From assembly GCA_902565595.1 (NCBI GenBank), contig CACFFD010000011.1:1-40759 (forward strand): DNA of 40,759 nucleotides, written 5' to 3'. This DNA is from Actinomycetota bacterium (GTDB taxonomy: Bacteria; Actinomycetota; Acidimicrobiia; Acidimicrobiales; UBA8592). Under the pieces are notes generated by a model. It ran no database searches, had not been told where the DNA came from, and worked only from the letters and a program-made list of their open reading frames with translations. Made by a program: the position numbers and the translations under genes. The first letter of the stretch is position 1. Each line of letters begins with the position of its first letter. Shown here piece after piece: positions 25,946-38,823 of the stretch.

Positions 25946-26027
25946 CATGAACCTCCAGTGTTCATTAAGCATTAGAGCGCATCAACAACAGTTGGCGCAA
26001 ATAAGCTTTCTCGCATATTGTTCAACA

Positions 26028-27797
26028 ATGAAGCTTGGGTCAGCGGTGATGGTTGATTTCGGTTTGGGTGAATACATAACCCAATACCCATCGAAACGTT
26101 ACCCCATTTACACCAGAGGGAACGCCGGAGAAGTATGGCCAGAAGTGGCTTACCCATTAACTATCACCCTTACCAGAGTTGTCGGTGAACAAGCGGCAGC
26201 AAAAGCGGCGATCAAAGCCGGAGTAATTTCCCCTAAAGATATTTTGGAGGGACCCTCATGTTTCGGAGGAGTTTTCGCTGGCTATATGTACTTAAACCTT
26301 TCCTTTGGAAGAATGATCGCCGTACGCACACCAGGAACAACCATAGAAAAAAGTGATGCAACATATTACGGATCAGAACAACATGCACCTGAATACATCC
26401 CCCACAGAGATGACAGAAGCCTTACAGCGAGCTTAAAGCTCATCCGATATGGCTGGAGGATGCTAAACACCACCGAAATATCATCGTTAGCTTCAGATCG
26501 TGATCTGGTCATTGAATGGCAAAAACGACTTCCAGAACTCCTTCAATCAGATAATCAAAAACTGGTAGCTGCTCTTCGAGAAATAATGGAGCCAGCTATG
26601 AACCTATTTACCAATCATCTAGAAATCACAGGCCAAGCTGGAGGAGCAGTCCAGCTACTTTCAACAATTTGTGAAGAGCGCTTTGATGACAGGTCACTTG
26701 CATTAACGCTACTCGGAAGCCTAGGTGATGTAGACAGTGCTGCACCTTCATTCGCTCTATGGGAACTTGGCCGAAAGGTAGCACATGACGCCAAACTTAC
26801 CGACTTATTTAATCAAGGTATTCTAGGCCTCGAAGAGCGCTTACGTAACTCTTATTACGCCAGTGACTTTGTCGAAGAATTTGATACTTTCCTTTCAGAG
26901 TTTGGAAGCAGAGGACCGAACGAGTGGGAAACTGCATGCGACACATGGGGAACCAATCCAGGCTCAGTTCTGATTCTCATAGATAGAATGCGCGAAGCTG
27001 ACCCTACAAAATCACCTCAACTGAGAACAGAACTCCTCGCAAAAAAAAGAGATCGAGCTCTATCACTCGCACGAACTGAATTAAAAGGATTGGGATTGTG
27101 GCTATTCAATAAAACATTCAACGCAGCTACTCTCTTCTCCAAAGCAAGAGAACGATCTAAAACAACAATTATTGATCTGATCCATGTCGCTCGACTGCTA
27201 TCTCGAGAACTTGCACACCGAACAGCTGAGCATAGAGAGAATAGTGAGCTCATCGACTTATGGTTCGTCCTCGAAACTGAATTAGATGATTTCATAGAAA
27301 ATCCATCTTCTTTCGATGAAAAGATCAGCGATAGGAAACATGTTAGAGAAGAGCTCTCAAAACGCACCCCACCATTTATTTTTGAAGGAAATTTGCCAGA
27401 CCCTTTACTGTGGCCTTTACGAAAAGAAGTAAATCCAAAAGAGTTCTCAGCTTTAACGGTCGGAGATACGCTTCAAGGTTTTGGTGGGTGTCCAGGAGTT
27501 ACAGAGGGAATTGCAAGGATTGTCACCGACCCTTCTAACCCAGGTTCTTTAGGAACAGGAGACATTTTGGTTGCTCCTTTGACTGACCCTTCGTGGACAC
27601 CATTATTTGTCCCTGCTGAAGCAGTTGTTGTTGATGTAGGTGGACAAATGAGCCATGCGGTCATTGTTTCGCGTGAATTAGGTATGCCTTGTGTCGTAGC
27701 AGTAACTAATGCTACCCAGTTAATTAGAGATGGTTCCCGTATTCGTGTTGATGGGTCCTCAGGGGAGGTAATAATACTAGATGTTCCAGATAAATAA
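26028..27797 (+). CDS. PEP-utilising enzyme, phospho-His domain protein lacking ATP-binding domain
   Basis: This protein is about 589 aa. The C-terminal ~95 residues are a PEP-utilising 'mobile' swivelling domain with GGQMSHAVIVSRELGMPCVV (phospho-His at codon 27654-27656). Upstream is a helical region with TRGNAGEVWPEVAYPLTITLTR near the start and EFGSRGPNEWETACDTW in the middle. This layout resembles the second half of rifampicin-phosphotransferase/PEP-synthase-like proteins. The N-terminal ATP-grasp part is absent and not seen in adjacent frames. The frame opens at 25947, which would overlap the divergent gene, so ATG 26028 (or 26049) is preferred. Activity would need a separate phosphoryl donor domain. 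Confidence 0.82.
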   Translation: MKLGSAVMVDFGLGEYITQYPSKRYPIYTRGNAGEVWPEVAYPLTITLTRVVGEQAAAKAAIKAGVISPKDILEGPSCFGGVFAGYMYLNLSFGRMIAVRTPGTTIEKSDATYYGSEQHAPEYIPHRDDRSLTASLKLIRYGWRMLNTTEISSLASDRDLVIEWQKRLPELLQSDNQKLVAALREIMEPAMNLFTNHLEITGQAGGAVQLLSTICEERFDDRSLALTLLGSLGDVDSAAPSFALWELGRKVAHDAKLTDLFNQGILGLEERLRNSYYASDFVEEFDTFLSEFGSRGPNEWETACDTWGTNPGSVLILIDRMREADPTKSPQLRTELLAKKRDRALSLARTELKGLGLWLFNKTFNAATLFSKARERSKTTIIDLIHVARLLSRELAHRTAEHRENSELIDLWFVLETELDDFIENPSSFDEKISDRKHVREELSKRTPPFIFEGNLPDPLLWPLRKEVNPKEFSALTVGDTLQGFGGCPGVTEGIARIVTDPSNPGSLGTGDILVAPLTDPSWTPLFVPAEAVVVDVGGQMSHAVIVSRELGMPCVVAVTNATQLIRDGSRIRVDGSSGEVIILDVPDK

Positions 27798-29165: not shown

Positions 29166-29948
29166 TCATTTCGGAAATCTATTGAGAACAAATCGGATTA
29201 TTAAATCTAGGCTTCTAAATCTTAAAGGGTCCTTAAGAACAAATCCCAAACGAGCTAATGATGCGAGTCGGCCAAAAACTTCTTGGAACACGCTCGACCG
29301 TACCTTTGTATCCTCCATAGTCCCGAATTGAGTTCCGGATGAATCTGAAGGATGTATAGCCACTACTACAGGAATGAACTCACAAATTAGACCATTCGCG
29401 CATGCGTCGGAGATAAATATGTACTCATCTCCGAGATAGTTTTCTGTACCAGCACCAAAGCTTTCATTGAATTTGATGGATTTTTCTCGGAATGGCTTTG
29501 TTCTGATTGCTATTTCGTAAGTTGCAGCTTTAGCAGAGTTGAAACGGCTTAATCGTCTTTTCCTCTTGAAATACCTCTTTCTTAAAAGGGAATTTTCGTT
29601 AATCGCTTGACCAAGAATTAAATCAACATTGCTATTTTCTGTAAAATAATCAACGATTGAAACCATACCTTCTTGGCTCCATTCCATATCGTCATCTCCG
29701 AAAAATAGAATTTCACCGGTAGCAGCAGCGAGGATTTGATTTCTGCTTTTAGCTGCCCCGATCGATTCTAAGTGAATCAATTTTACATCTTCCCTGTGGG
29801 GTATTTCGGTAAATCCTCCTTGGACAGCAATGATAATTTCAATATTATTTCTTCGGGGTGGAAGTTTTATTTCCCCTACGTGATCTACAAGGCTTGAGTA
29901 TCCAATGGTTATAGATGGGTCACTCACTGTAGACTCTTGCTCTGGCAA
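29166..29948 (-). CDS. GT2-like glycosyltransferase (GT-A fold)
   Basis: This 260-aa protein shows the family 2 pattern ESIGAAKSRNQILAAATGEI (61-80) followed by the metal/nucleotide-sugar DxD-type triad in FFGDDDMEW (Asp85-87). GAGTENYLGDEYIF near the middle fits the acceptor-side acidic motif. No membrane helix is evident. The start is TTG, and the 5' end overlaps the preceding membrane-protein gene by 29 bases, so it is the last gene of the minus-strand operon. Donor and acceptor are unknown. Confidence 0.82.
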   Translation of the reverse strand: MPEQESTVSDPSITIGYSSLVDHVGEIKLPPRRNNIEIIIAVQGGFTEIPHREDVKLIHLESIGAAKSRNQILAAATGEILFFGDDDMEWSQEGMVSIVDYFTENSNVDLILGQAINENSLLRKRYFKRKRRLSRFNSAKAATYEIAIRTKPFREKSIKFNESFGAGTENYLGDEYIFISDACANGLICEFIPVVVAIHPSDSSGTQFGTMEDTKVRSSVFQEVFGRLASLARLGFVLKDPLRFRSLDLIIRFVLNRFPK

Positions 29949-30687
29949 ACCGCATTAAACCTGATGAAAACCCTGTATAGATTTGACCGACCATCCGTAT
30001 AGCAATAAAGAGAACGAAAGCCTTGGCTGGATCTACGTAATCTTTTGCGTAGAGAAAAATAAGGATTCCGAAAAGACAGATTAAGCCGGCGGAAGAGGCC
30101 AGAGATCCTATTTCACCCGCAATAATTCGTGTTCTCACCTTTTCTGCATTTGTTACAGGTTCTTTTTTTAATTGTTTATATCGGAAATTGTACTGAGATT
30201 TGAATTGTTGAGATAAGCGGTATGAAAGGACTTGGAAGATTCCAATTCCGATAAGAAGATTGCAAATTCCAAAGATAGGTGAGAAGTAGAAAAGTATCGC
30301 AGATACAACAATCAACCTCCCACACATTGAAAGCAAGGTAGTTAATTCCATTGCTGTTGCCCAACGCCATGAATCAGAGGCTCGGCCTTGACTCTCTTGA
30401 TTGTTGAGAGATTTTTCAAAGACGTTTAGTTTGTGATGTTCTTTTGCAAAATTTGCTAATCGAAGTACAGCAAAGGAAAGAAGGAATATGAAGGAGAGAA
30501 ATATTAAATTTCCTGAGCTTCTAGGTTTATCAGGCAAGATCAAAAGAGAGAAGAAGTGTGCCATCATGAGCTCAGAAATCGAAATAAATATAGCTAAGCC
30601 GATGACTCCGATTACCATTCTGACTTCTTTGCGTGATGGGAACAGGTCGTTAGTTGTTTTAATTAGTTCGGTAACGATAATTTTCAT
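29920..30687 (-). CDS. Polytopic membrane protein resembling ABC-exporter membrane domain
   Basis: This 255-aa protein has about five hydrophobic segments (roughly 24-48, 62-78, 118-134, 138-156, 198-214, plus a weaker one near 225-240). Between them lie long charged loops (SYRLSQQFKSQYNFRYKQLK). The C-terminal SSGLMRFARARVYS recalls the helix that precedes the ATPase in type-I ABC exporters, but no ATP-binding domain follows. It starts within the TGA of the upstream fusion gene (ATGA overlap) and overlaps the downstream GT2 gene. A role in glycan handling is inferred from the operon. The family is uncertain. Confidence 0.65.
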   Translation of the reverse strand: MKIIVTELIKTTNDLFPSRKEVRMVIGVIGLAIFISISELMMAHFFSLLILPDKPRSSGNLIFLSFIFLLSFAVLRLANFAKEHHKLNVFEKSLNNQESQGRASDSWRWATAMELTTLLSMCGRLIVVSAILFYFSPIFGICNLLIGIGIFQVLSYRLSQQFKSQYNFRYKQLKKEPVTNAEKVRTRIIAGEIGSLASSAGLICLFGILIFLYAKDYVDPAKAFVLFIAIRMVGQIYTGFSSGLMRFARARVYSE

Positions 30688-32474
30688 TTAAGTCCCTGCT
30701 TCAAAATAGTATCGATACTTTCAAGAAGGCGGGTTTCTATCGCATCTTTAGTTACTTCACTAATTCGTTCGGTTTGTCGCGTTCTTTCTAGTATCAAAGA
30801 ATTGAGGTCCCTTTGTATTACGGCTGGATGTAATTCTCCAAATCCTACTCCAAGTGAATAATCTGAGTATTTTAGTCCTGACCCAGAGACACTGTTTTCT
30901 AGCCCTTCAAATGTTACTAATGAACAAGGTATTCCATATGATTGGCAAACTATGTAAATGTGCATTGCACTTGTAACAACCTCATCGTATTTCGACAACT
31001 GTAGAAGAAAGTCACGAATTTTTTCTGGGTGGGAAATAAGTAGACTCAATTCATCAAAATTGTCTGGAAGGGCTAGAGGAACACCCCGGTGATTAATATG
31101 ACGAACAAGGGCGACACGACCATTTGTTTTATCTCGTGTAAGAGGTATTACCCTTGAAATAAGAGCCGCTGGATCCCCAAACGATGTTACTTTTGGCCCT
31201 CCACAGTCTTTAAGGAACTTAGCAGTGATAGGTCCTCTGACCGAAAGAAAATTTGCTTGTGATTCTATTCGGTGGTCGTAACCTGATATTCCAGTTCCGC
31301 TGACTATGGAATTAGTCTTAATAAATCTAGCTATGGAGCCTACAGCAATGATGTGTTGGGGGGTTCTTCTAGAAGGGGCTGTAGGAGTCTGAAATAAAAT
31401 TCGGCAGTCTCCGTAATGGGTAAGCAGCAAAGGAGAAAGCCAGTCCCCCAAATTTCCTGGAAACGGTCTAACCCACCAACTCAAATGTAAAGATTTATCT
31501 GATTCGATAGAGGCGTAATACGCAAAGGATCGAGCAACTTCGATAGTTGCTAGTTCATTTTGGTTTGCAATACTATTCGAACACAAGTCGTTAGCTAATT
31601 CGTCAAGGAGACTGGTTTCTCCATTGATTCCCGCCCTTAAAATACGATTTGTAATATCACGACGTTGCATCTGACTTCTTCCATCAGAAAGACCAGATCG
31701 GTTAAATCCCAAGAGATAATTAGTCAATCCAATATTGTCCGAAATCGAAATGAGTCGTCGGGAAACTCTTTTGGGGAAGAAGCGAATAATTTTTTTGCCA
31801 TACTTCAAAAGTAATTTCTTTGTCCATTTCGGCCTTTGTTCACTTAGGTGCTGAGCTGTTTTACTTCTGAATTCCTCAACATTTCCGCTTGATCCAAATA
31901 CAAAGAATGCAGGGTGCACAGAAGGTAACGCTTGTTTTCCTACTACACATGCAGATGGGATTATCTGAAATGTTAGCCCTTCAGCATTCGCTCTCCATCC
32001 TTCTTCAAAAAAGAAATCGTCTGTTGCTTTAATAGTTGAAGCTTTTTCACTAGCTGCAGCATCAGCCATCATTTTTCGTGCTGTCTTTGAAGTTCCAACT
32101 CCCCAGAAACAAGGTTCCCAGAATCGAGCGTGATTTCTGTAACCTATTGCTATCGGTGGACTGAATCCTCTCTGGAAGCCAATGATGTCAGCAGATGAAT
32201 TTGTAACAAAGTCTGGGATTTCCAGAAGCCTGCAGTCTACGTCAATCCAGAAGATCTTCTTCTTTGGATTGGAAAGACACATGTCATTAAGGAATGAAAC
32301 CTTTTTTCTACAGGTATCAACCCAATCCTCATCTGTTCCCTTATTTATCAGTTCAATTCGATGTGCGACTCCAATAGAATCAAGGTTGAATTTGAGTTCA
32401 TTAGCGTGATTTCTGTAATAATCATCGTCGGTGTAAAACGAACAAACAATTATGTCTCGCAAAATGATCTCCAT
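30684..32474 (-). CDS. Glycosyltransferase-polysaccharide pyruvyltransferase fusion
   Basis: This 596-aa protein has two parts. Residues 1-200 look like a GT-A nucleotide-sugar transferase, with KKIFWIDVDCRLLEIPDF carrying Asp78-x-Asp80 and WEPCFWGVGTSKTARKM. Residues 330-550 match polysaccharide pyruvyltransferases (CsaB/WcaK type): FPGNLGDWLSPLLLTHYG (GNxGD at 340-344), VSGTGI, SVRGPITAKFLKDCG, SFGDPAALIS, and TSAMHIYIVCQSYGIPC, where the usual catalytic S-x-R-x-H region reads SAMH. It would transfer a sugar and a PEP-derived ketal pyruvate. It is coupled to the next gene by an ATGA overlap. Confidence 0.78.
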   Translation of the reverse strand: MEIILRDIIVCSFYTDDDYYRNHANELKFNLDSIGVAHRIELINKGTDEDWVDTCRKKVSFLNDMCLSNPKKKIFWIDVDCRLLEIPDFVTNSSADIIGFQRGFSPPIAIGYRNHARFWEPCFWGVGTSKTARKMMADAAASEKASTIKATDDFFFEEGWRANAEGLTFQIIPSACVVGKQALPSVHPAFFVFGSSGNVEEFRSKTAQHLSEQRPKWTKKLLLKYGKKIIRFFPKRVSRRLISISDNIGLTNYLLGFNRSGLSDGRSQMQRRDITNRILRAGINGETSLLDELANDLCSNSIANQNELATIEVARSFAYYASIESDKSLHLSWWVRPFPGNLGDWLSPLLLTHYGDCRILFQTPTAPSRRTPQHIIAVGSIARFIKTNSIVSGTGISGYDHRIESQANFLSVRGPITAKFLKDCGGPKVTSFGDPAALISRVIPLTRDKTNGRVALVRHINHRGVPLALPDNFDELSLLISHPEKIRDFLLQLSKYDEVVTSAMHIYIVCQSYGIPCSLVTFEGLENSVSGSGLKYSDYSLGVGFGELHPAVIQRDLNSLILERTRQTERISEVTKDAIETRLLESIDTILKQGLK

Positions 32475-34033: not shown

Positions 34034-35932
34034 TTAACCTTCCGAGTTCATTTGCGGTTGCAAGATTAAGTTTAGGAGAGTTGAGGCTTGGGATCTTCTA
34101 CTGAAATTATTTCGATCTTTCCTCTTATTTCTAGTTGGTATGTAAGATGCAAGAAATTTGTTAATTTCACTCGAGTTGTTTTTAACCCAAAAAACACCCT
34201 CTAAGTCCTTGGTAAGGTCGTGAACCGCACCGGATTCTACCTTTCCATCCGTGATAATAATGATGTCTAGGTCGCAGCCAATATAATCAAATACCTTTGT
34301 TGTTCCAGTAGTAGATTCGCCACCAAGCCTTAAAATCCCTGCATCACACTTGAGCATTTCATAGGCTAGAAGAGATTTATCGCTGAGGAAACCTCTTTGC
34401 TCCGTACCTTCGTGCTCTTTGAGGACTTGTGAATTTGTTTGGTCACGACCAAAGTGAACCAAGTTATGGCGATTTGGAGAGAGAGCGTTTAAGAATTCGT
34501 CTATTCCAAGATTACGAAATATCGTGCCACAGTATACGAATCTGATTTTCTCTAATGGGCTAAATTCTTCTGAATTTTCACTATCTCTTGCTTGCAGATT
34601 AGTTGCATCATTTATGACTGTTTCGTTGAAGCCATTGTTTACTATCGCACGGTGAATATTGACGTTGGGAGCTATAACTTCTAGACATTGCTGGTTGACA
34701 GATACAACAACGTCACCGTTGTCAACGTTCTCCTCTTCATGTTGATCTATCCAGGCCCTTTGTTCTTTTGTGAAAATCATTCTCGGATCTCCGCCGTAAG
34801 GATCTCGGAAGTCATAAATTATTTGGGATTCCCAAAGTTCCTTAAAATATGCTCCTAGTTCGAGGTAGCCGAATGGGCCTACGGAGATAACTACCGTGTC
34901 AAAAGATTCATCCCATTTCTTTGTTTCCTCTTTTACATAATCACTCCAGCTCATACCAAGAGAGGGGACTCCTACATTTATAGCTTTAGCTAATTTGTTG
35001 CGTGCCATGGAAGAAACTAGAAAATTCCCCCTATCTTTCACCACTCTATTTCTCGGAAAGGTTTCAGCGTTTGTCGTGGCGCTTAACCATATGACTTCGA
35101 GAGCTACCCCAGCAGCTGCAGCTATCTCTTCGAGAGATTTATGCCAATAGCTAAGTCTCTGCGTAGATACCAGAGTTGTGGGAAGGGAGAAATACGAAAC
35201 TATAAGTACTCGGTGATCTATATCTTCTTGAAGTTTGTTATCTCCAATAGGTTCTATACATTTCTCCTCTATTTCTACTATCTCTTTCAAAAGAACTTCT
35301 AAATCGCTTGATTTCCCTATCTCAGCTGTAACAATGTGTTGTTCTCTCCAATCGTTTAGGGTCTCCTGGTTAGGGACGAAGCATTTTTTTGCTGCATTTT
35401 CGAGTCTTAGGATCGATTGGTTGTAAAGAGCTCTTTCGAAGAAAAGGTAGAAAGGTTGGTTAAGTGCTCCAGTTATTGTTTCTGCAAGCACTGGGTTATC
35501 TTCAGGGTTTCGGTAGATTATTGCTGAAGAAGTATCAGCTATCTCTCCACTTTGCTTTAATAATCGGACTACCGAAGCAGTGATTAGACCTGGATCATTT
35601 ATAGAGTGGTGAGTTTCTTCTTGGAAGATAGAACGTCCAGATAGATATGAGTTATAGAAGATCTCGTATCCGCTATTGTCGGAAAGAATTTCAACCGTAT
35701 CAACCTGATTGACAAGGGATGAAAAAAACTCAGGAGTGGGATCAGTGATTCTTCCCATTGATATAAATGTCAATCTTTCTAATGATGGTCGTTTTTGAGA
35801 AAGTACATTTTTCAAAAATAGTTCAAGAGATTCTGAGGTAATTTCAGAACCTAAGCGCTTCATTATCTGCTGACACACGTTGAGAATTTCTCTAGATCCA
35901 CTTTCTGAATGGGCTAACGGGATATTAAACAT
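34034..35932 (-). CDS. Large GT-B glycosyltransferase with unrecognised N-terminal domain
   Basis: This is a 632-aa protein. The C-terminal ~390 residues look like a GT-B glycosyltransferase: RVLIVSYFSLPTTLVSTQRL (about 245-264), IIYDFRDPYGGDPRMIF, IRFVYCGTIFRNLGIDEFLN, NLVHFGRDQTN, and LGGESTTGTTKVFDYIGCDL. The N-terminal ~230 residues (GRITDPTPEFFSSLVNQVDT region) match nothing recognised and could be a second GT-like or acceptor-binding domain. It is the first gene of the minus-strand glycan operon, and its start faces the divergent plus-strand GT. No strong SD is visible before the ATG. Confidence 0.75.
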   Translation of the reverse strand: MFNIPLAHSESGSREILNVCQQIMKRLGSEITSESLELFLKNVLSQKRPSLERLTFISMGRITDPTPEFFSSLVNQVDTVEILSDNSGYEIFYNSYLSGRSIFQEETHHSINDPGLITASVVRLLKQSGEIADTSSAIIYRNPEDNPVLAETITGALNQPFYLFFERALYNQSILRLENAAKKCFVPNQETLNDWREQHIVTAEIGKSSDLEVLLKEIVEIEEKCIEPIGDNKLQEDIDHRVLIVSYFSLPTTLVSTQRLSYWHKSLEEIAAAAGVALEVIWLSATTNAETFPRNRVVKDRGNFLVSSMARNKLAKAINVGVPSLGMSWSDYVKEETKKWDESFDTVVISVGPFGYLELGAYFKELWESQIIYDFRDPYGGDPRMIFTKEQRAWIDQHEEENVDNGDVVVSVNQQCLEVIAPNVNIHRAIVNNGFNETVINDATNLQARDSENSEEFSPLEKIRFVYCGTIFRNLGIDEFLNALSPNRHNLVHFGRDQTNSQVLKEHEGTEQRGFLSDKSLLAYEMLKCDAGILRLGGESTTGTTKVFDYIGCDLDIIIITDGKVESGAVHDLTKDLEGVFWVKNNSSEINKFLASYIPTRNKRKDRNNFSRRSQASTLLNLILQPQMNSEG

Positions 35933-37211: not shown

Positions 37212-38075
37212 TTGAGTACTCAAAGTTCCCCAAAGATAACTAGAAGGGCGACGCGTTCTGGCCTCCCGCAGTTAAGTAACTACTTTAGTGAGGCTTGGCG
37301 GTTTCGAACTTTTGCTTGGCGTTGGTCACTTGCTGACGTTAAAGCAAGAAATTTTGAGACGTTTTTGGGTCGTATCTGGCACATAATTAATCCACTATTG
37401 TTTGGCTTGATCTACTTCATTTTTGTAGGGATTATTGCAGGTGGAGGGGTTGGAAGTATTTCATTTCTTGGCGCCATTGTTGGTAATCTCTATGCCTTTT
37501 TATTTTTTAACATGATTGTCACTATGGCTATCGCTACTGTTCAATCAGGAGCTGGTGGTGTGTTGGGACAGTCATCTATCCCAAGAATTGTGGTTCCGAT
37601 TGCATCAACAATTACATCGATGAATTTGTTCCTTCGGTCTTTAGTTGCATACGCCTTGATGCACATAATTTCACAACGTGGCTTACACATTGAAATGTTA
37701 CTAGCCCCTATTGTGGTGATCTTAATATGCATGTTTGGCTTTGGCTTTGCTCTTATCTGTGCAACTTTAAATGTCTACATCAGGGATGTTTCACGTCTAA
37801 TTCCTCATTTCTTAAGGCTTTGGATGTATTTGTCCCCTGTAATTTGGGAGTACACAAGAATCACTGGTGGTGGCACTTTGAATCAGCTTGCAAGATTTAA
37901 CCCTTGGTATTCTGCAATGACCGCCTGGACTATCTCCTTAGGAGGAACTCTTGACCCAGATGGCCCAAAAATTTGGGAACAAATTGGAATTTTTTCTATA
38001 TGGTCCGTAGCCATATTTTTTGTAGGCATCTTTTTGTTTATTTCAAAGGAGGATGAATTTGCAATTAGAAACTGA
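37212..38075 (+). CDS. ABC-2 type polysaccharide exporter permease (Wzm/TagG-like)
   Basis: This is a 287-aa membrane subunit of an O-antigen or teichoic-acid type ABC exporter. The cytoplasmic N-terminus has RWSLADVKARNFETFLGRIW, the amphipathic segment typical of this family, followed by six hydrophobic helices and MYLSPVIWEY, a conserved Wzm/TagG stretch. An in-frame stop lies directly upstream, so the TTG at 37212 is the first possible common start. The last 17 bases or so overlap the ATPase gene. It would export an undecaprenyl-linked glycan made by the neighbouring transferases. Confidence 0.88.
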   Translation: MSTQSSPKITRRATRSGLPQLSNYFSEAWRFRTFAWRWSLADVKARNFETFLGRIWHIINPLLFGLIYFIFVGIIAGGGVGSISFLGAIVGNLYAFLFFNMIVTMAIATVQSGAGGVLGQSSIPRIVVPIASTITSMNLFLRSLVAYALMHIISQRGLHIEMLLAPIVVILICMFGFGFALICATLNVYIRDVSRLIPHFLRLWMYLSPVIWEYTRITGGGTLNQLARFNPWYSAMTAWTISLGGTLDPDGPKIWEQIGIFSIWSVAIFFVGIFLFISKEDEFAIRN

Positions 38076-38823
38076 TGCAATTCGTGTTGAAAATCTTTCA
38101 GTGAATTATTCAATTGTTGCCGAATCTCCCTTAGATCAAAAGCGGAAATTTTATAACAAGTCGACACGGAAGACTGAGATTAAAGCTCTAGATGATATCT
38201 CATTTAGTATTCCTTCAGGACAGATTGTTGGCTTAATTGGCGGGAATGGTGCTGGGAAATCTACGTTACTCAAAACGATGATTGGAGTTTTGAAGCCATC
38301 TAAGGGGCGAATTGATTTGTGGGGTAGACCTCATCTTCTTTCTCCAGGTATGGGATTTAACCGTTTGCTTTCAGGCCGTGAGAATGTTGTCTTAGGTGGT
38401 CTTGCAGCTGGAATGACCTTAAGTGAGATTAAAGAGAAACAAGATTCGATCATAGAGTTCGCTGATATAGGAGGGTTTATCGATCTTCCTATGACAACGT
38501 ATTCTTCTGGGATGTTTGGTCGACTTTCATTTGCCGTAGCAACGTATAATCGTCCTGAGATACTTCTAATTGATGAAGCATTGTCAGCTGGTGATGCGGC
38601 GTTTAAGGAGAGAGCTGTTCAACGACTAAAGGACTTATGTGATTCTGCTATTTCTATAGTTGTTGTTTCTCATTCTTCAACGCTTATTGCGGAAATGGCG
38701 ACTGAGGCGATTTGGCTTCATCGAGGAAAAATTAAGTTACAAGGAGAAGTTCAGTCTGTCACAGATGAGTATCTTAAATTCCAAGCTGAAGGTAATGAGA
38801 CAGCCCAGTTGGATCAAAGGTGA
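38059..38823 (+). CDS. ABC polysaccharide exporter ATPase (Wzt/TagH-like)
   Basis: This is the ATPase that pairs with the upstream permease. Walker A is GGNGAGKST, the family-specific YSSGMFGRLSFAVAT takes the place of the LSGGQ signature, and Walker B is ILLIDEALSAGD. An ATG at 38053 is directly joined to the perfect SD AAAGGAGG (38045-38052) and so is too close. The TTG at 38059 has a 6-base gap and is the more likely start. At about 254 aa it lacks the C-terminal carbohydrate-binding domain of long Wzt proteins, which suggests export not gated by a non-reducing-end cap. Confidence 0.9.
   Translation: MQLETDAIRVENLSVNYSIVAESPLDQKRKFYNKSTRKTEIKALDDISFSIPSGQIVGLIGGNGAGKSTLLKTMIGVLKPSKGRIDLWGRPHLLSPGMGFNRLLSGRENVVLGGLAAGMTLSEIKEKQDSIIEFADIGGFIDLPMTTYSSGMFGRLSFAVATYNRPEILLIDEALSAGDAAFKERAVQRLKDLCDSAISIVVVSHSSTLIAEMATEAIWLHRGKIKLQGEVQSVTDEYLKFQAEGNETAQLDQR

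Follow-up and report, generated by a model that had tools for sequence, protein, structure and literature searches.

A conserved fusion of a GT-A-like domain with an ExoV-type pyruvyltransferase domain, a likely two-step enzyme of surface-glycan assembly

On the reverse strand of a 40,759-nucleotide stretch of DNA from an Actinomycetota bacterium (the window, hereafter), one gene encodes a GT-A-like domain and an ExoV-type ketal-pyruvyltransferase domain, joined by a helical linker. Sequence comparison and a structural model make it likely that the product works in the cytoplasm on surface-glycan assembly and carries out two steps, sugar addition by the GT-A domain and pyruvyl transfer by the ExoV-type domain. 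The gene and its parts are the following:

30684..32474, reverse strand: fusion gene of 596 aa, or 592 aa if translation begins at the more probable TTG, with GT-A-like domain, helical linker and ExoV-type ketal-pyruvyltransferase domain
31839..32456, reverse strand: N-terminal GT-A-like domain, residues 7-212, assigned from conservation, Foldseek and the PF03407 match of a standalone relative (L092)
31506..31838, reverse strand: helical linker, residues 213-323, poorly conserved and helical in the model
30795..31505, reverse strand: C-terminal PS_pyruv_trans domain, residues 324-560, assigned from PF04230, structural matches and the ExoV alignment

The reading frame runs through 596 codons with no internal stop. 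The closest relatives start at the position of query residue 5; here the window reads TTG, preceded by a GGAG that ends 6 bases upstream, and for this reason the true start is probably at 32462 (592 aa). An original prediction from the DNA letters had placed both domains in one chain and pointed to DVD, GNLGD and SAMH motifs; all three are present as described (W76-I-D78-V-D80, P339-GNLGD-344 and S502-AMH-505). Relatives were located at 53 loci in a scan of genome contigs, and in 47 of these, as in the window, both halves lie in a single open frame, with identities of 40-68%. Hosts of the full-length fusion include freshwater actinobacterial MAGs, Actinobacteria bacterium IMCC26077, Paracoccus species and Marinobacter daepoensis. 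A chance join of unrelated genes, or an assembly error of the kind that an incomplete source assembly (77 contigs, 63% complete) might produce, is scarcely conceivable: the same architecture in these 47 other loci, among them Paracoccus and Marinobacter isolate genomes and the complete genome of IMCC26077, refutes it from independent genomes.

Family, fold and motifs all bear on the C-terminal half. PF04230 (PS_pyruv_trans) is matched over residues 363-517 (E 1.9e-8; 35.0 bits against a curated cut-off of 25.3), and by all 37 members scanned; an NCBIfam scan of the fusion protein returned no match, and sequence searches against solved structures, with the whole protein or either domain, gave no meaningful match. 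An AlphaFold model built on an alignment of 37 relatives reached a pLDDT of 82.7 and a pTM of 0.61 (single-sequence prediction gave a pLDDT of 34), and its C-terminal domain has the two-Rossmann, GT-B-like fold of WbbZ and Pvg1p. In a Foldseek search of the PDB, 6x1l ranked first (E 5.6e-4, probability 1.00) as the only PDB match with E <0.001, and 5ax7 (Pvg1p) ranked fourth; because the search was run on the whole fusion model, domain TM-scores are modest, at 0.40-0.48 of the target. The structure 6x1l is that of WbbZ from Klebsiella O1, for which PEP-dependent pyruvyl transfer has been proven in vitro (PMC10629545). Some weaker matches were UDP-sugar epimerases, which the authors of the WbbZ study also met (PMC10629545). 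WbbZ and the fission yeast Pvg1p keep NxGD, RxxxS/T and the His in common with our domain; they differ in being single-domain proteins and in showing no likeness to it in sequence profile searches, and R337 of Pvg1p is Ala in the fusion.

The motifs found along this domain are N341xGD344, R413xxxT417, G433DP435, H459xxH462, S502AMH505 and K535xxDY539. Among known ketal-pyruvyltransferases, NxGD, RxxxS/T and His are the common motifs (PMC10629545), and here N341/G343/D344, R413 with T or S at 417, and H505 show no variation among the sequences covering these positions. K535 of KxxDY is likewise invariant, its counterpart in ExoV being KWNDW. In Pvg1p, D106, R217 and R337 have been modelled at the active site, the last of them as binding the PEP phosphate, and D106A is almost without activity (PMC4872226). 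By motif, R337 is equivalent to position 503, which is A503 in the window protein; K535, R458 and H459 are candidates to fill its role. It might be supposed, then, that the C-terminal domain keeps its GT-B-like fold as a second glycosyltransferase and transfers a nucleotide sugar rather than pyruvate, since the GT-B fold is common to pyruvyltransferases (PMC4872226), WbmX was at first taken for a GT-B enzyme (PMC10629545), and the arginine for the PEP phosphate in Pvg1p is absent. Such a double glycosyltransferase is nevertheless quite improbable, because the best structural match is WbbZ and not a GT-B glycosyltransferase, every motif common to proven pyruvyltransferases is invariant, and ExoV has the same motif set, also without the arginine. 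With WbbZ and Pvg1p as its best structural matches, the C-terminal half did not turn out to belong to another GT-B or unrelated family, and Pfam, structure and conservation agree with the proposed combination of GT-A and polysaccharide pyruvyltransferase.

Where our analysis departs from the original prediction is in the label CsaB/WcaK-like, and in the suggestion that the pyruvyl domain is divergent for want of the Arg in S-x-R-x-H. The Arg is indeed absent, position 503 being A in 48 of 53 sequences, S in 5 and R in none. The succinoglycan ketal-pyruvyltransferase ExoV of Sinorhizobium meliloti (pSymB 1175762-1176719, 99.9% identical to a gene annotated exoV), however, reads ESMHGAI and is also without it. 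When profiles were aligned with hhalign, the C-terminal domain matched ExoV with a probability of 95% (E 2.1e-8, 206 columns, motifs in register), whereas only a short stretch aligned with E. coli WcaK, at a probability of 0.7%; in an HMM comparison, E-values were 1.5e-10 for ExoV and 0.015 for WcaK. ExoV shares W..GNxGD, VRGPxTA, DP, the H of VPH/VRH, xxMH and KxxD[YW] with the domain, and differs in having no GT-A domain and an identity of only about 19%. The CsaB/WcaK type belongs to the same Pfam family, PF04230, and WcaK, through which alone the type was compared here, keeps T-R-L-H. The arginine that marks the CsaB/WcaK subtype is thus lacking from our domain, and the marks of an ExoV-like subtype (full-domain alignment, [AS]MH and KxxD[YW]) are all present. 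Because ExoV lacks the arginine as well, its absence is normal in the subtype and does not speak for a loss of function, which rules out a dead or divergent domain on that ground. Judged by its sequence, the C-terminal domain is of the ExoV type and carries no sign of decay.

For the N-terminal half, the GT-A reading comes from fold and conservation. Structural matches in the PDB (Foldseek) are dominated by GT-A enzymes, namely PBCV-1 A064R and GT6 enzymes, and the domain has both a GT-A-like fold and an invariant DxD, a likeness that extends to the PF03407 nucleotide-diphospho-sugar transferases as well as to A064R. D78, D80, R102, R117, T151-D152-D153 and E157 do not vary in any of the 58 sequences, a pattern that an active, metal-dependent GT-A enzyme should show. 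No Pfam family rose above its cut-off for the N-terminal domain of the window protein; PF03407 was the best weak link (E 0.12), found in 2 of the 37 members scanned. A clear match to PF03407 (E 3e-9) was given by L092, a standalone distant relative of the domain from a genome of the class to which Marinobacter belongs.

Both domains are conserved, with mean identities to the window protein of 57% for residues 7-212 and 52% for residues 324-560, against 26% for the linker; in Polaromonas, a TPR match falls at the place that corresponds to the linker. From one pair of sequences to the next, identity in one domain follows identity in the other (r 0.96 with paralogues, a value reached by none of 2000 permutations; r 0.89 without paralogues), and this correlation is consistent with joint inheritance, as expected if the GT-A-like and pyruvyltransferase domains pass on as a unit while the linker drifts. 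Among more than 1,100 genomes searched, the 27 strong matches to the N-terminal domain all lie in open frames of 580-707 aa, except one at a contig end, and standalone matches were only weak (E 1e-9 to 1e-13). Five Paracoccus loci carry a second full-length paralogue of 26-28% identity. The fusion gene is an accessory trait, carried by only 3 of 18 genomes of its own genus (several of the 18 incomplete), and it probably moves horizontally. Split-gene orthologues, which the original prediction had proposed to look for, were found in arrangement only: at one distant locus (L089) an N-like gene, itself a weak match, adjoins a separate, convergent ExoV-like gene, and the locus is too distant for orthology.

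Such distributions also bear on whether the two active sites work together. They may act on different residues, or one domain may serve for binding or as a scaffold, so that fusion fixes only stoichiometry or location within a synthesis complex. A long, variable, helical linker would tolerate independent domains, and the C-terminal domain also occurs alone (L049, 278 aa; L057, 268 aa) and with a TPR-GT2 partner in Sphingobium. We regard this arrangement as unlikely, however, since the almost invariable pairing of precisely these two domains speaks for a substrate common to both, and the version with a dead domain is opposed by catalytic motifs that are invariant in both.

The neighbourhood of the gene consists of glycan-assembly and export genes, in support of the two-step reading. 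Three features of the window are relevant here:

29920..30687, reverse strand: 255-aa membrane protein, downstream of the fusion gene and overlapping it by 4 bases, at least five transmembrane segments predicted from hydropathy
29166..29948, reverse strand: GT2 glycosyltransferase, 260 aa (PF00535, E 1.3e-7), the third cassette gene, which overlaps the one for the membrane protein
37212..38823, forward strand: ABC-2 permease and Wzt/TagH-like ATPase, a nearby polysaccharide exporter on the strand opposite the fusion gene

Of the 33 related loci inspected, 21 have the membrane-protein gene and 17 the GT2 gene; in most cases the gene order is that of the window and the GT2 gene overlaps the membrane-protein gene. 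In actinobacteria the fusion gene is usually accompanied by both. Marinobacter is among the 21, with the membrane-protein gene preceding the fusion gene, and the pairing is therefore not confined to one phylum. The 255-aa protein is a probable partner of the fusion. Pfam and PDB searches with it gave no match, and the suspicion that it is the membrane half of an ABC exporter thus found no support. Its family has invariant W107, E114, Q161, Q165, R187 and E192 and an MRxxRA motif. The Wzm/Wzt-like pair 4.7 kb from the fusion gene in the window is a possible export route. In Paracoccus, the fusion gene is followed by KpsE-, KpsT- and KpsM-like capsule-export genes, after which comes the second paralogue; in Paracoccus nototheniae (L035:4953-11658), for example, kpsE-kpsT-kpsM-like genes are flanked by two paralogous GT-pyruvyltransferase fusions. 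In some freshwater actinobacterial loci (L016:6756-10699 and similar ones), the fusion and membrane-protein genes are separated by genes for two CDP-alcohol phosphatidyltransferases and for a MobA-like nucleotidyltransferase, an arrangement that suggests a polymer containing polyol or inositol phosphate.

Two further proteins of the window may be mentioned. One (25947-27797, forward strand; 616 aa) carries a PEP-utilising mobile domain at its C-terminus, the only Pfam domain in it; as a supplier of PEP it was set aside, being encoded on the other strand and recurring only in the nearest relative. The other (34034-35932, reverse strand; 632 aa) adjoins a GT4 gene and reads in parts like a GT4 enzyme, and Pfam and NCBIfam scans of it gave no match.

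In the two-step reading, the DxD of the N-terminal GT-A domain would bind a metal-bound nucleotide sugar, and the domain would extend a lipid-linked or growing glycan by one sugar residue. The ExoV-type domain would then transfer the pyruvate of PEP across two sugar hydroxyls as a ketal, most likely on the sugar just added, so that the end of the glycan would become acidic. The helical linker would hold the two active sites together, the 255-aa membrane protein would supply a membrane context and the GT2 enzyme a further sugar. We infer both activities, the order of the steps, the sugars, the donor and acceptor, and the action of both domains on the same residue; a residue shared by both sites would be a natural reason for fusion. 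Against this reading stand A503 at the position of Pvg1p R337 and the weak link of the GT-A domain to PF03407. By way of comparison, the substrate of ExoV is the octasaccharide of succinoglycan, which belongs to a Wzx-type pathway (PMC6801904). From the kps-like neighbourhood in Paracoccus, the Wzm/Wzt-like pair in the window and the analogy with WbbZ, which shortens O1 chains in vitro (PMC10629545), it is tempting to speculate that the fusion is a capping module for ABC-exported glycans, whose terminal sugar and pyruvate ketal would stop growth and mark the chain for export, and we put this forward as a doubtful but conceivable extension.

Both domain types are already known, as is the joining of an ExoV-like domain to another type of glycosyltransferase: a 991-aa TPR-GT2-pyruvyltransferase fusion on plasmid pKN1 of Sphingobium yanoikuyae (L061:3826-6801), annotated only as glycosyltransferase family 2, resembles the window protein in this respect and differs in that its glycosyltransferase is of family 2. 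Giant-virus proteins annotated as pyruvyltransferases also gave long structural matches to the fusion model, in comparisons of models at low identity only. No published account of this GT-pyruvyltransferase fusion or cassette was found in the literature searched, a body that excludes most subscription journals. In public annotation the fusion proteins are named only 'polysaccharide pyruvyl transferase family protein', and the glycosyltransferase half is missed.

The conserved fusion points to the glycosyltransferase that would make the pyruvyltransferase's acceptor, and such partners are as a rule difficult to predict. Moreover, as far as the sequences indicate, the absent arginine of S-x-R-x-H marks a subgroup of the ExoV type and not enzymes that have lost activity, a distinction that matters for the annotation of pyruvylated glycans in abundant freshwater actinobacteria.
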